DNA of 64,000 nucleotides. Origin: Sinorhizobium sojae CCBAU 05684. Lineage in GTDB: Bacteria > Pseudomonadota > Alphaproteobacteria > Rhizobiales > Rhizobiaceae. The stretch is taken from the NCBI RefSeq assembly GCF_002288525.1, contig NZ_CP023067.1, forward strand, positions 2,800,501 to 2,864,500, written 5' to 3'. Under the pieces are notes generated by a model, which was given only the letters and a program-made list of their open reading frames with translations, did no database searches and had not been told where the DNA came from. Positions 47,962 through 53,532 of the stretch are shown one piece after another (position 1 is the stretch's first letter; every line of letters begins with the position of its first letter). The position numbers and the translations under genes are program-made.

Positions 47962-48999
47962 CTAAACCTGCCCGCTCGGCAGATTGTCCTTCAGGAATAT
48001 GTCGATGCGGATGCGCTCCTGCGCCGCAATCACCGCCAAACCATCCGCCTTGGCCTTGAGGACACGGATCGCGCTTCTGACCTCGTGGCCAGCATCCTGG
48101 TTGAGGAGCGCGTCGATCGTTCCGGACAGGAGCGCCGCGCGGCTATAGGCGGTCAGTTCGTGCGCGACCACGCAGATCGTCCCCGCCTTGCCCGCCTTCT
48201 CGAGCGCCGCGACGAGACCGCGATTGCCGGCGCCGATACTATAGATGCCGGCAAGATCCGGATGTGCGTCGATCAGCGCCGCAACCAGTTTCTCAGCAAG
48301 CGCCGCGTCGTCCTGGCCCTCGACCACCGGCAGCAGCGCGCGGGTGCCGAAACAGTCGCGCATCACGGCTTGGAAACCTTCGAGGCGATCCCTGTGGTCG
48401 CGTACGAGCATGGAGCCCGCCAGCACGGCCACCGGTCCCTCGCGGTTGCCGAGAAAACGCCCCATCAGACTGCCGGCCGTGCGCCCGGCGGCGACATTGT
48501 CGACCCCGGCGAAGTGGTCGCGCGCCGAACCGGGCAGGTCCGACACGAGGGTCACGACGGCAATACCGTCGTCGCGAAGACGCTTTACCGCGGCGGTCAC
48601 TTCAGGCGCTTCGATAGCGACCACGGCAACACCTGCCGGCTGCCGACGATGCGCCTCGGCGAGCGCCTCCGCCAATGCCTGCGCATTGAAGGCAGGTACC
48701 GTCAGAATTGTGATCTCCGTGCGCTCCGCCGCCGAGCGGACGGTCGCCGCCCTCACTTCGGCCTCAAGGCCGCGCATGAAGGAATTGTCGCCCGCTGGCA
48801 TGATGAAAATCAGCGGATAGGTGCGCCCCTTGGCAAGGTTCGCCGCCGCAACGTCACGCACATAGCCGAGCGTCTCGATCGCCTGCTCGACCTTGTCGCG
48901 CGTCACGGCCCTGACGCCCGGACGGTTGTTGAGCACCCGGTCGACGGTCGCCAGGCTGACCCCCGCTTCAGCGGCGATATCGTGAACGGTTGGACGCAT
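47962..48999 (-). CDS. LacI family regulator of the xyl cluster
   Basis: A 345-residue protein with the N-terminal HTH TVHDIAAEAGVSLATVDRVL (residues 4-23) and hinge, followed by the sensor domain starting YPLIFIMPAGDNSF. The ATG at 48999 has an excellent GGAGGAGAGG Shine-Dalgarno; the longer frame upstream is non-homologous. It lies 10 bp before xylB. A dyad at 49029-49052 is positioned for autoregulation. It may sense xylose or a derivative; the other candidate target is the palindrome at 44924. Confidence 0.92.
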   Translation of the reverse strand: MRPTVHDIAAEAGVSLATVDRVLNNRPGVRAVTRDKVEQAIETLGYVRDVAAANLAKGRTYPLIFIMPAGDNSFMRGLEAEVRAATVRSAAERTEITILTVPAFNAQALAEALAEAHRRQPAGVAVVAIEAPEVTAAVKRLRDDGIAVVTLVSDLPGSARDHFAGVDNVAAGRTAGSLMGRFLGNREGPVAVLAGSMLVRDHRDRLEGFQAVMRDCFGTRALLPVVEGQDDAALAEKLVAALIDAHPDLAGIYSIGAGNRGLVAALEKAGKAGTICVVAHELTAYSRAALLSGTIDALLNQDAGHEVRSAIRVLKAKADGLAVIAAQERIRIDIFLKDNLPSGQV

Positions 49000-49028
49000 C
49001 CTCTCCTCCTCGGGAACCCTTAGAGGAA

Positions 49029-49052
49029 TTTTTGATGTACGTAAATCAAAAA
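49029..49052. promoter_or_regulatory. dyad upstream of the xyl LacI gene
   Basis: TTTTTGAT and ATCAAAAA are perfect 8-bp arms around GTACGTAA, 30 bp before the LacI start codon. It differs from the CG-centred palindrome at 44924, so the two may bind different proteins. Confidence 0.5.
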
Positions 49053-49134
49053 TACGCCAACGGCGATAAACGAGGCGAAATAGCAACGTCTCAGTCGCTG
49101 TGTTTGCTCAGGGAACCACAGGGCGGCGAGGCGA

Positions 49135-49250
49135 GGTGAAGGTTGCCCCACTCTAACCCTTCTCCAGACAAGCGGCGAGTCCCTTTTCCAGCATGCATCA
49201 GCATGGGAGAGAAAGTGGCCGACAGGCCGGATGAAGGGCAAAAGGTATGA
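49135..49250. repeat. degenerate RIME-like element
   Basis: TTGCCCCACTCTAACCCTTC at one side and GGCCGACAGGCCGGATGAAG near the other carry recognisable pieces of the rhizobial mosaic repeat, with poor internal pairing. It marks the left border of the unusual acyltransferase/P450 patch. Confidence 0.5.
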
Positions 49251-49288
49251 GTTGAAGGGGGCGGAGCTGTCAGACCAAGGTTGCGCTG

Positions 49289-50257
49289 TCATGGTGCGCG
49301 AAGCGCATGGTCCAGGAAATACCATTGATCGAGGTTCTCCCTAATCACCCTTTCGACCACGTCGTTCAGCAGAAGGAGGTCCTCGCCCCGCCGTGCGCCA
49401 GGACTGTCTTCAGGCGGGAGCCGAATTGGGTCGAGCGAGCGCCATACGAAATTGAAGCCCTCGCCGCGCAAGCAATACCACGGACATATTGTGGCGCCCG
49501 TCACACGTGCCAAGCGGATGGCAACGCCGATATTCCCTTCGAGATGGGGTTTCCGTCCGAAGAAGGGTCCCCGGATTTTGCCGCCGAAACCCTCGTCGCA
49601 GAAGATGCTGACGACGCCACCATCCTTCAGGATCTTGATCGCGGGCTTAACGCCCGCCGCGCCGGGGGGCAGAAATCTTAGGCCAGCCTTGCGGCGAACG
49701 CGTTCGGCGATCCAGGCTTTTGCACGCCCTCTTGGAGGGACATAAAACGCGTGAACATTGATGCCGTGCAATACGGTCGGGGTGATTTCCCAGTTACCGA
49801 GGTGCATCCCGACCAGGATGACCGGCCCACGGTCAACGGCTTCGGCAATGATATCGAGTCCGTGGACTTCCACGCGCTCGGGATGGCGTTGGAGGCGATT
49901 GACAACAGAAAATTCTGTCATCAGCCGTCCCTGCGCACGGCAATTCCTGCGAAAAAGCTCGTCACGGTCGCGATCACCCATGTCCGGGCATAGTTGCCGG
50001 ATCGTGTCACGGGCACGATTCGAAGCGATCCTGTGAAAACGCGGCATCGCGAAGCTGCCGAGGCTCGCTCCGAAATTCGAGCAGGCATCCATCGGGAGAA
50101 GCTTGAGTCCGAAATGTACGAGCAGGTGGGTAACATTCCAAAAATTGTTCGTTACCACATGGCGCCAGAAATCGCGCGATCGCCGTCTCCCTGCCAGGAC
50201 ATCGGTAATCGTGGGGGCGCTTTGCTGGTAAAATATCCAGGCGCTCCGTTTCTTCAT
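49289..50257 (-). CDS. LpxL/HtrB-like lysophospholipid acyltransferase
   Basis: A 322-residue acyltransferase of the lipid A biosynthesis lauroyl transferase superfamily. The catalytic H-x(4)-E is in VILVGMHLGNWEITP, and later conserved pieces are VPPRGRAKAWIAERVRRKAG and VSIFCDEGFGGKIRGPFFGR. It probably moves an acyl chain from an ACP or CoA to a lipid acceptor at the inner membrane. ATG 50257 is my choice; GTG 50302 would overlap the P450 gene by 26 bp. It follows the broken P450 gene on the same strand, and the surrounding DNA is less GC-rich than the rest of the window, suggesting horizontal acquisition. Confidence 0.8.
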   Translation of the reverse strand: MKKRSAWIFYQQSAPTITDVLAGRRRSRDFWRHVVTNNFWNVTHLLVHFGLKLLPMDACSNFGASLGSFAMPRFHRIASNRARDTIRQLCPDMGDRDRDELFRRNCRAQGRLMTEFSVVNRLQRHPERVEVHGLDIIAEAVDRGPVILVGMHLGNWEITPTVLHGINVHAFYVPPRGRAKAWIAERVRRKAGLRFLPPGAAGVKPAIKILKDGGVVSIFCDEGFGGKIRGPFFGRKPHLEGNIGVAIRLARVTGATICPWYCLRGEGFNFVWRSLDPIRLPPEDSPGARRGEDLLLLNDVVERVIRENLDQWYFLDHALRAP

Positions 50258-50276
50258 ACGCGGCTTCGTCTGCCAC

Positions 50277-51699
50277 TCAGCGGTCGGCACGCGGCGTTCC
50301 ACTTCGTTTCTCGAGTGTGACCGGCAGGCCCCCTTTGGGCCGCAGCGTCAGACGGCAGACTGGTTCTAGTTTGTGGGTACTCGCGACGACGACGCGGAAT
50401 TGCTGGGCAATGATTGCCAGGCAGAGGACCGCTTCCGTAAGGCCGAAATGCAAGCCTGGGCACACGCGTGGTCCGCTTGCGAACGGTATGTAGCTATAGG
50501 GAGTCGGGCGGCGCCCGCCCATGAAACGCTCCGGTCGAAAATAATGCGGCTGCTCAAACAGGCTCCCCGTGCGGTGCAGCAGCCAGGGTACGATCAGCAC
50601 GAGGGAACCGCGCTGGGCGGCGATGTTGCCGATCATCTCGGCTTCACGGGTCTGCCGTGCCAGAATTGGGACAGGAGGATAGAGGCGAAGCGTTTCCTCG
50701 ATCACTGCCTTGCACAGTTCGAGCTGCGGTACGTCGTCTATCGTCGGAATCCGGTTGCCGCAAACACGCCCGATCTCGGCATGCACGGCCTCTTCCACCC
50801 ATTGTGCCCTGGACAACAGATACCAGGCCCAGGTCAAAGTCGAAGCTGTCGTTTCATGGCCCGCCATGAAAATAGTTGCGGCCTCGTTTCGCAGAGCGAC
50901 AAGATCGAGTTTCAGTTCCGGACTCTTCATCTGGCGGCGCACGAGAAGCTCGACCATCGAATTGTGGTCGCCGCGACCGGACAGGTGATCCTCCACAACC
51001 TTGTCGATGATCCGGTGAATGCGGCTAACGGAGCGACGCAGTGTCGGCGTGCGAAAGATCGGCAAGCCGTCGTCAAATCCGAGGAAGTAACCGATATTGA
51101 TGGAGTCGACCAGGGCCTGGTAACTGGTGAAGCCTTCTGTGACAGCCGCGGCGCTGTCGTCGCCGAGGTCGTTTCCAAAGACGCTTCGAGCGATGATCTC
51201 CGCAGTCAAGCCGGCCATCTCGTGAAGCGCGTTGACGGGTGTACCCTCGGGTATTCGCTTCCAGCGCTCGACGAGTTCGATCGACGTGCGCTCCATAATC
51301 GGACCGAAGGAAGGCACCCTTTTTGCGTGCACTATGTCGGTCACAAGGGGGCGGCGAGATAAAAAGCCCATCTCCAAGGAGGAATTCAAGCGCGCGACGC
51401 ATCTGTGGGGTCTTGCGCTGGAAGTTTTCGTGGCGCTTGACGACGACGTGCCGGATGAGTTCGGGCGAGTTGACGATGACGATCTGTCGACCGAGCACCC
51501 GTATCTCGGAAACTTTCTCTTTGTAGTCGCTTGCGCGCCAGATCGACAGAAAATCTTTTCTTGCTTGCACAAGCAGTTGAATCGGCTTCCCAGGCGGCCC
51601 GGTATAGTAGTCTGCTCTTGAGGGGGAGAACGATTTTCCTGACAGTTCCTCGGTAAATCCTATTGGCCTATTGAGCCATTGCAGCATCTTGCGTTCCAT
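50277..51699 (-). pseudogene. cytochrome P450 with frame-breaking deletion
   Basis: The N-terminal 113 or so residues (from ATG 51699, MERKMLQWLNRPIGFTEELS) and the C-terminal roughly 350 residues are in different frames. At about 51341-51362 the first frame reads GDGLFIS and then runs into nonsense, while the second resumes with RRPLVTDIVHAKRVPSFGPI. In intact relatives about seven residues (H/DGExWxxR-like) bridge these, so a roughly 20-bp out-of-frame deletion is inferred. All later P450 hallmarks persist: I-helix MAGHETTAS, ExxR in EETLRLYPP, and haem loop FASGPRVCPG with its Cys ligand. It was probably a monooxygenase working with the adjacent acyltransferase. A sequence error is possible. 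Confidence 0.8.
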
Positions 51700-51919
51700 T
51701 TCGGAGGAATCAGCAGGGGTGGAGAATATTGAGTTTTGGTTAGTATTAAACAGGCTCAAAATCCAGACCCGGTCGCGCTCGCATTTAATGCAGCAAACAA
51801 CAAATCCGCTTCTGTGTCGCGCTGCGCCAATTGAATGCACCGATCTGGGCCGGACGCCCCGCGGGGGGCGGCATCGCTTTCGTCTCTCCCAAGAGCAGTT
51901 TGCAGTCAGGGGGGATCTT

Positions 51920-53509
51920 CTAGTGGCCACCGTCTCCAGGCCCGGCGCCCTGCGGCTTGCTGATCATCAGGACGCCGGCGATCATCGCCAGGAACAGCAC
52001 TGTCAGGAGCAGGAAGATATCGCCGAAGGACAGGATCGTCGCCTGCTGCTGCACCGTCGTGGCCAGTTGCTTGAGCGCAACGGTCGCGCCGTCGAGGCCG
52101 TAGGCGTCGAAATTCGACGTCATGTTCTCCAAGCGCTCCACCGCCGCGGGATTACCCCATTGCACGTGCTCGGCAAGCCGGGAATAGTGGAATTGCTGCC
52201 GCTGCGTGAGAATCGTATTGATGACGGCAAGGCCGACCGCGCCGCCGAGATTTCGCGTCAGGTTGAACAGACCAGAGGCATTGCGGACGCGCTCGGGAGG
52301 CAGCGTGCCGAGGGCGATGTTGTTGATCGGCACCATGCAGAGCATCAGCGAGCTGCCGCGCAGGATCTGCGGGACGAGCAGTTCCCAGAAGTCCCAATCG
52401 CCGGTCAGATGGCTCATCATCCAGGTACCCGCCGCAAATCCGGCAAAGCCGATACTCATCATCAATCTGGGATCGACCCGGCCCGCCAGGAAGCCTGCGA
52501 CCGGTGCGGTGAGAAACATGGCGAGACCCGAGACGAACATGGTCTCGCCGATCATCAGCGAATCATAGCCGCGGATGCGCCCCAGATAGAGCGGATAGAG
52601 ATAGGTGAGCCCGTAAAGGCCGATGCCCATGACGAAAGAGAAGAGCGAACCCAATGTGAAGTTGCGGTTAACGAAGGCCCTGAGATCGACCACTGGAAAC
52701 TCCACCGCGAAAGCCCGGTAGAAGAACACGAGGGCGCCGAGCACGGTTGCGAACGCGCCCATGACGATGTGGTCGTCATTGAACCAGTCATTGGCGTTGC
52801 CTTCCTCGAGCACAAATTCGAGCGACCCCAGAAAGATCGCCATCGATAATAGGCCCCACCAGTCGAACTTCTTCATCAGCCCTAATTCCGGCTTGTCGAA
52901 GTCGATGTAGGTCCAGGTCAGCGATGCGACGATGATGCCCGGAATGACATTGACGAGGAACAGCCAGTGCCAGGAAAAGGCGTGGCTCAGATATCCGCCG
53001 ACCGTCGGGCCGATGGTGGGCGCCAACGTCGCGATCAGCCCGATGATCGGCGAGACGATATTGCGCTTCGACGGCGGGAAAATGGTGAAGGCGGCGGCGA
53101 AGACCGAGGGGATCATGCCTCCGCCGATAAAGCCCTGGATCGCACGATAGACGATCATCTGCTCGATATTGGTGGCGGTCGCGGCGAGCGCGCTCGCCGC
53201 CGTGAAACCGGCGGCGGCGACGGAAAAGAGCACGCGCGTCGAGACGATGCGGGCGAGCGTGCCCGACAGCGGGATCATGATGACCTCGGCGATCAGATAG
53301 GAGGTCTGCACCCAGCCGATCTCGTCCGAACCGGCGGAGAGCCCCGCCTGGATTTCGGCGAGCGAGGCAGAAACGATCTGGATATCGAGGATCGCCATGA
53401 ACATGCCGGCCACCATCGCTAAAAAGGCGATCAGCCGTTTCGGATCCATGCGTTCTTCCGCGCCGGCAGCATCTGCCGCCAAAACGCCCGCTGTTGCCGT
53501 TGCCGCCAT
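51920..53509 (-). CDS. emrB: EmrB-type multidrug efflux MFS transporter (DHA2)
   Basis: A 529-residue inner-membrane transporter with about 14 TM helices. The DHA2 pattern is clear: TM1 region LIAFLAMVAGMFMAILDIQI, then EIGWVQTSYLIAEVIMIPLS, and motif C-like IGLIATLAPTIGPTVGGYLS. The ATG at 53509 has AGGAG 8 nt before it; a GTG at 53518 would sit too close. It follows emrA by 23 bp. In S. meliloti the EmrAB pump is flavonoid-inducible and affects nodulation; the location here matches that known locus. Confidence 0.93.
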   Translation of the reverse strand: MAATATAGVLAADAAGAEERMDPKRLIAFLAMVAGMFMAILDIQIVSASLAEIQAGLSAGSDEIGWVQTSYLIAEVIMIPLSGTLARIVSTRVLFSVAAAGFTAASALAATATNIEQMIVYRAIQGFIGGGMIPSVFAAAFTIFPPSKRNIVSPIIGLIATLAPTIGPTVGGYLSHAFSWHWLFLVNVIPGIIVASLTWTYIDFDKPELGLMKKFDWWGLLSMAIFLGSLEFVLEEGNANDWFNDDHIVMGAFATVLGALVFFYRAFAVEFPVVDLRAFVNRNFTLGSLFSFVMGIGLYGLTYLYPLYLGRIRGYDSLMIGETMFVSGLAMFLTAPVAGFLAGRVDPRLMMSIGFAGFAAGTWMMSHLTGDWDFWELLVPQILRGSSLMLCMVPINNIALGTLPPERVRNASGLFNLTRNLGGAVGLAVINTILTQRQQFHYSRLAEHVQWGNPAAVERLENMTSNFDAYGLDGATVALKQLATTVQQQATILSFGDIFLLLTVLFLAMIAGVLMISKPQGAGPGDGGH

Positions 53510-53532
53510 TTCGGGCACTCCTCGCTTGTCGC

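Follow-up and report, generated by a model that had tools for sequence, protein, structure and literature searches.

A cytochrome P450 gene of Sinorhizobium sojae CCBAU 05684 has, in all probability, been recently inactivated by a 23-bp out-of-frame deletion, as judged from its comparison with an intact relative. The gene lies in the window, i.e., the whole stretch of 64,000 nucleotides that was analysed here. A broken gene is in itself ordinary. The new part is the conserved pair that this P450 forms with a neighbouring acyltransferase gene (LAT) and the tie of that pair to the rkp-1 genes, from which we infer a function that can be tested.

The gene is encoded on the minus strand (50277-51687) and is split between two frames in translation. 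The features concerned are the following:

51355..51687, minus strand: beginning of the P450 gene (5' part), MLQWLNRP...GDGLFIS over 111 codons, with ATG 51687 as its likely start
51354..51357, minus strand: deletion junction, 23 bp absent relative to the intact orthologue; 51355-51356 (2 bp) match both sides
50277..51356, minus strand: remainder of the P450 gene (3' part), shifted to the other frame; 359 codons and a stop, with what we read as I-helix AGHETT, ExxR and haem-Cys loop
51073..51687, minus strand: present reading frame of the native start, part of the ORF 51073-51930; 111 native residues are followed by about 93 foreign ones, up to 51073

The first frame runs to ...LLGDGLFIS, the second opens at RRPLVTDIVHAK... 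(RRPLVTD) and stops at 50277, and minus-strand translation gave no internal stop in either part. The downstream frame carries AGHETT, EETLR and FASGPRVCPG, which are the I-helix, ExxR and haem-Cys loop motifs of P450s. A preliminary description of this DNA had already reported the two frames, the GDGLFIS end and the motifs downstream of it, all of which are borne out by the translation. The downstream part matches the Pfam p450 family (PF00067) with E = 1.7e-56, and the 5' part, as a 130-residue query, gave no family match at E up to 0.001. Residues 1-111 of this 5' part are 98% identical to the protein of the intact relative, Sinorhizobium sp. RM56_bin.004 (hereafter G030; public contig JAPSJG010000061.1), which is a metagenome bin that is 70% complete. 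The same relative bears on the start of the gene, which had been placed at 51699: the ATG at 51687 is likelier than this upstream one, because the window and G030 differ by a 2-bp indel at 51697, so that in G030 the upstream ATG is not in frame with the gene. The other end (50277) and the rest of the coordinates stand. A DNA search found the gene once in its own genome, with other p450-family matches at other places.

A separate observation concerns a stretch of the symbiosis plasmid with P450 and terpenoid genes (L087, G000:C3:168000-180000). It is 100% identical to plasmids of the S. fredii soybean strains CCBAU 25509 and CCBAU 45436, whereas the best listed plasmid match to a second-contig stretch (L088) is 91% over 73%. 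This contrast may point to recent plasmid transfer.

The orthologue in G030 is intact, encodes 477 aa, and has 93% DNA identity to the window gene. The whole-gene alignment of the two has a single gap within the P450 frame, of 23 bp, at about window position 51354. The preliminary description had proposed such an alignment to size the deletion and had estimated some seven missing residues; this estimate was right, since 23 bp is 3 x 7 + 2, i.e., seven residues gone and the frame shifted. No further stops or frameshifts were found in the gene beyond this gap when it was compared with G030. The junction shows a 2-bp microhomology (51355-51356), and the comparison shows that a 23-bp deletion with this microhomology took seven residues of the helix-C region and shifted the frame. 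The missing stretch includes the helix-C tryptophan, which in P450s such as BM3 contacts a haem propionate. Hence, two features of a working P450, this tryptophan and a continuous frame, are both lacking in the window. Given that translation from the native start ends at about 204 residues, no haem-binding P450 is expected from the present gene.

The P450 region is unbroken elsewhere. This is the case in 23 of 23 loci (G030 among them), in all 17 loci of the family search besides the window's own copy, and in all 28 of the more distant loci from the order, all of which have the tryptophan and the RR; the first two sets partly overlap, and 41 rows, of which 37 are different, entered the trees. 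The tryptophan of the missing stretch is present in all unbroken orthologues of the three locus sets. Stops within the alignments of four loci (L031, L035, L038, and L042) all fall at query position 470, which is the natural end, and in two others (L039 and L040) the alignment ended before any stop. The pattern that the preliminary description had named as telling against it, two frames in all homologues, was sought and not found in the orthologous loci read. Its picture of a gene that is well preserved but for one small out-of-frame deletion is supported by both the alignment with G030 and these unbroken loci.

We then have to consider the age of the loss, which had also been described as recent. 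The comparison of the window with G030 gave a dN/dS of 0.137 for the two P450 parts together (0.068 in the 5' part and 0.154 in the 3' part); the adjacent acyltransferase gene had 0.193 and emrB 0.118. Polarising the P450 changes with 16 outgroup genes gave 8 nonsynonymous and 13 synonymous changes (8N:13S) on the window branch and 12N:24S on the G030 branch, leaving out 12 silent and 2 amino-acid changes that were ambiguous. No excess of amino-acid changes was detected on the window branch by this count (Fisher p = 0.78), which has low power. Neutral evolution over 0.4 or more of the window branch is disfavoured by a simple binomial model (P = 0.04 for a share of 0.4). The acyltransferase gene has no such excess either (10N:17S on the window branch vs 12N:15S, p = 0.78). 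Because there is no other stop or shift and purifying selection was kept in both halves, the loss looks recent relative to the split from G030, within the low power of these comparisons, and the claim of a recent loss is supported to that extent.

The same data bear on two other explanations of the split gene. The frameshift could be a fault of assembly or sequencing, the gene being intact in the living strain. The junction is known from one assembly, and the rest of the gene is under purifying selection, as an intact gene would be. However, the lesion is a clean loss of 23 bp with a 2-bp microhomology and no homopolymer slip, in a genome that is assembled in three contigs with 99.98% completeness, and we regard such a fault as very unlikely. 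Programmed frameshifting might instead restore one protein, or the two parts might be made and work together, as could be suggested by the low dN/dS of both, but a recent break predicts this equally well. Two frames are found in no orthologue read, and seven residues, including the conserved tryptophan, are still absent: even with a ribosome slipping back in frame, the product would be without the helix-C tryptophan. This explanation is barely credible.

The presumably inactivated P450 gene is directly followed by the gene of an acyltransferase of 337 aa, whose start overlaps the P450 stop:

49289..50302, minus strand: LAT, LpxL/HtrB-type acyltransferase, intact (PF03279, HX4E motif HLGNWE)

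LAT matches PF03279 (Lip_A_acyltrans) with E = 8.8e-25, and HLGNWE is an instance of the HX4(D/E) motif known from acyltransferases of this type. Fifteen NCBIfam models match it, none with a score that reaches the curated cut-off (best 74 bits vs 273). The start codon at window position 50302 is a GTG, that of the G030 gene an ATG. An adjoining LAT accompanies the P450 in 23 of 23 loci, in all 18 loci of the family search (own copy included), and in 24 of the 28 distant loci by HMM (22 by tblastn). The four others (L097, L099, L106, and L118) have no acyltransferase within the 1.5-kb flank of the P450 orthologue. The gene neighbourhoods around the pair vary between loci. By these sequence comparisons, the P450 and LAT are a two-gene module conserved across Hyphomicrobiales, and the intact ancestral P450 would have worked together with the adjacent LAT. 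Neither this pairing nor the cassette and the rkp-1 association treated below had been noticed in the preliminary description. In the window strain, translation of LAT may be inefficient owing to the early end of the upstream frame (about 204 residues), which now lies 770 nt ahead of the start of the next gene.

Some loci show further variation of the pair. In 11515TR, the P450 has about 70% identity to that of G030, but the accompanying acyltransferase just 36%, which would fit an exchange of the partner. Two genomes have two diverged P450-acyltransferase pairs each (L043 and L035 in G134, L044 and L036 in G035). The P450 and LAT trees place the Agrobacterium/Ciceribacter rows differently (L010 and L017), which hints at recombination within the pair.

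The pair occupies a cassette between two genes that we name from their sequences:

51920..53518, minus strand: cassette flank, presumably an emrB-like MFS transporter
49054..51919, minus strand: cyp-LAT cassette, about 2.9 kb, between emrB and the LacI-type regulator
47962..49086, minus strand: cassette flank, presumably a LacI-type transcriptional regulator

Among 33 genomes of the genus, the P450 and LAT are each present in two, the window's own genome and G030. The cassette is absent in 27 of the 28 other genus loci, which are those with both flanks in reach (26 of 28 at a stricter cut); L083 stops short of the regulator, L072 has a single 38-bp match to the cassette, and three genus genomes gave no locus at this site. 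In 4 of the 27 cassette-free loci the flanks are 176-278 bp apart. The remaining 23 (among L059-L084) hold an alternative stretch of 1.3-1.5 kb that is alike among those genomes and has an open frame of about 380-465 codons, which often starts with what we take to be a twin-arginine-like signal. Since 23 of 27 loci hold another stretch and 4 of 27 a short spacer, the site is variable, not simply empty.

The window and G030 are particularly similar in and around the cassette. Their identity per 200 bp is 0.90-0.97 at 49,321-52,320, 0.875-0.94 over the kilobase that follows, and 0.70-0.90 further out, and it is 0.78-0.91 on the other side of the cassette. Their synonymous divergence is 0.151 for the P450 and 0.321 for emrB. 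Over emrAB, the short-spacer genomes G024 and G001 have 90% and 89% identity to the own genome, vs 86% for G030. In ten loci of the Ensifer group, the pair is located between genes that we presume to be groEL and a gene of about 400 aa beside parC; the own genome has these presumed parC and groEL genes and the gene of about 400 aa without the pair between them. In the P450 tree, both the window and G030 branch within Ensifer (support 99/94). The LAT tree also groups them with Ensifer, and their position among the Ensifer rows is not settled in it. Given the cassette-free sites, the tree, and the pattern of identity and divergence, the pair probably reached the lineage by horizontal transfer from an Ensifer-like source, the direction being what we infer, and probably moved between Sinorhizobium lineages by recombination. 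The location next to emrB, shared by the window and G030, could also suggest that the pair serves in detoxification or efflux together with emrAB. Yet the pair is found at emrB in only these two of the 33 genus genomes, and elsewhere it is at the parC-groEL site, beside capsule genes, or at other places, which makes this role highly improbable.

The distribution of the P450 points instead to capsule-lipid genes. In a sample of 297 genomes of the family, the P450 was found in 16 and an RkpG-like gene in 41, all 16 being within the 41. In a sample of 297 genomes of the order, these numbers were 30 and 81, all 30 again being within the 81. The RkpG-like gene is thus present in 16/16 genomes with the P450 vs 25/281 others in the family (Fisher p = 9e-16), in 30/30 vs 51/267 in the order (p = 1e-19), and, counting by genus, in 8/8 with the P450 in the family (p = 1e-7) and 18/18 in the order (p = 1e-11), p-values that overstate the case, given the common descent of all the genomes and some overlap between the two samples. 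The cut for the P450 in the order (about E = 1e-106) was chosen after seeing the data, at a gap between 1e-106 (42% identity) and 3e-70 (33%). The threshold for RkpG (1e-90) admits some paralogues of about 40% identity; all 30 P450 genomes of the order have an RkpG match at 1e-127 or better. Genomes with only more distant P450s have an RkpG-like gene in 11 of 24 cases, so the link does not extend to P450s at large. Nor does it work in the other direction, since 31 of the 33 genus genomes are without the pair and four of those have an RkpG-like gene. Hence, the pair is not needed for rkp-1 itself.

Gene neighbourhoods give further indications. An AONS-like enzyme is encoded beside the pair in L128, L130, and L131, of which L130 and L131 are from one genus and L128 is from another family. 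A KpsS-like capsule protein is beside the pair in L130 and L131, and a PKS in L128 and L131; upstream in L131 are, in addition, genes for an ABC-2 permease and an ATPase. In L126, from a third family, the stretch includes a PKS, and an RkpG-like gene lies about 10 kb from the P450. On a Shinella plasmid (NZ_OZ000537.1), the pair is within 25 kb of capsule ABC transporter genes and a type I PKS, and the same 25 kb also holds an AONS-like enzyme, an SDR, and a capsular biosynthesis protein. This group of genes is similar to the rkp-1 region. Overall, rkp-like matches near the pair were found in 4 of 18 order loci (L128, L130, L131, and, for the PKS only, L126) and in the Shinella loci L015 and L024/L140. 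The 14 other order loci, read over up to 18 kb, have no match to the RkpG-like, KpsS-like, or PKS queries, and constant linkage of the pair to rkp genes was not found. The rkp-1 region of the own genome has, in a row, open frames for a PKS (2520 aa), an AONS-like enzyme (471), an SDR (267), a 530-aa protein, and a KpsS-like protein (460 aa).

According to excerpts of two publications, the rkp-1 region serves to produce a lipophilic carrier or anchor of the capsular polysaccharide, a product that these excerpts characterise in general terms only (PMC3557214; PMC4881576). Those of the second report that mutation of rkp-1 in S. fredii HH103 impairs the nodulation of soybean (PMC4881576). A role for the P450-LAT pair was not found in the open-access literature searched. 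Because of the co-occurrence with RkpG and some of the gene neighbourhoods, we tentatively propose, as a reading with a little less than an even chance, that in Hyphomicrobiales the P450 and LAT tailor the capsule lipid carrier or anchor of rkp-1, by hydroxylation and then esterification, and that the window strain, with its rkp-1 and LAT frames intact, is a natural knockout of the first step. The P450 would hydroxylate the lipid made by the rkp-1 genes (PKS, the AONS-like RkpG, SDR, and others), LAT would acylate it, and the window strain would have lost the P450 step of this tailoring. Such a modification of the rkp-1 lipid would be an optional one. If the pair does tailor this lipid, the natural loss of the P450, set against the intact pair in Ensifer and Shinella, would provide a direct comparison.

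A different substrate can be envisaged, in that the intact pair would modify lipid A or its very-long-chain fatty acid and not the capsule lipid. The acyltransferase does belong to the Lip_A_acyltrans family. The P450's best solved matches by sequence are chains of LUTEIN DEFICIENT 5 and a putative P450 (7wzl), with chains of BM3, a fatty-acid hydroxylase, among the next. Yet lipid A is general in these bacteria, whereas the P450 in our samples occurs only in RkpG-bearing genomes, and the score of LAT is far under the listed lipid A cut-offs. The open-access literature searched held nothing bearing on a very-long-chain hydroxylase for lipid A. We consider lipid A an unlikely target. The predicted structure of the P450 family is poor (mean pLDDT 57.4), with residues 113-129 helical in the model, and adds little.

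Set beside known systems, the window gene resembles an ordinary frameshift pseudogene of an accessory gene: it has a single small out-of-frame deletion, no other lesion, and unbroken orthologues in relatives, and it is itself accessory and probably horizontally acquired. There is no difference in principle, and the partner gene in the window is intact. The rkp-1 genes (rkpAGHIJ) for the K-antigen lipid carrier are related to the pair by the presence of an RkpG-like gene in every sampled genome with a P450 orthologue, nearby in several; the pair lies outside the rkp-1 set as described in the excerpts cited above and is missing from most Sinorhizobium genomes sampled. With CYP97 (LUTEIN DEFICIENT 5) and CYP102 (BM3), the P450 shares the Pfam p450 family, and it is distant from both. 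It further differs in that the intact form of 477 aa is without a fused reductase and is paired with an LpxL-type acyltransferase gene. LAT itself is like the LpxL/HtrB secondary acyltransferases of lipid A in PF03279 and the HX4(D/E) motif, and it differs from them in scoring below the curated cut-offs and in being tied to a P450 gene.
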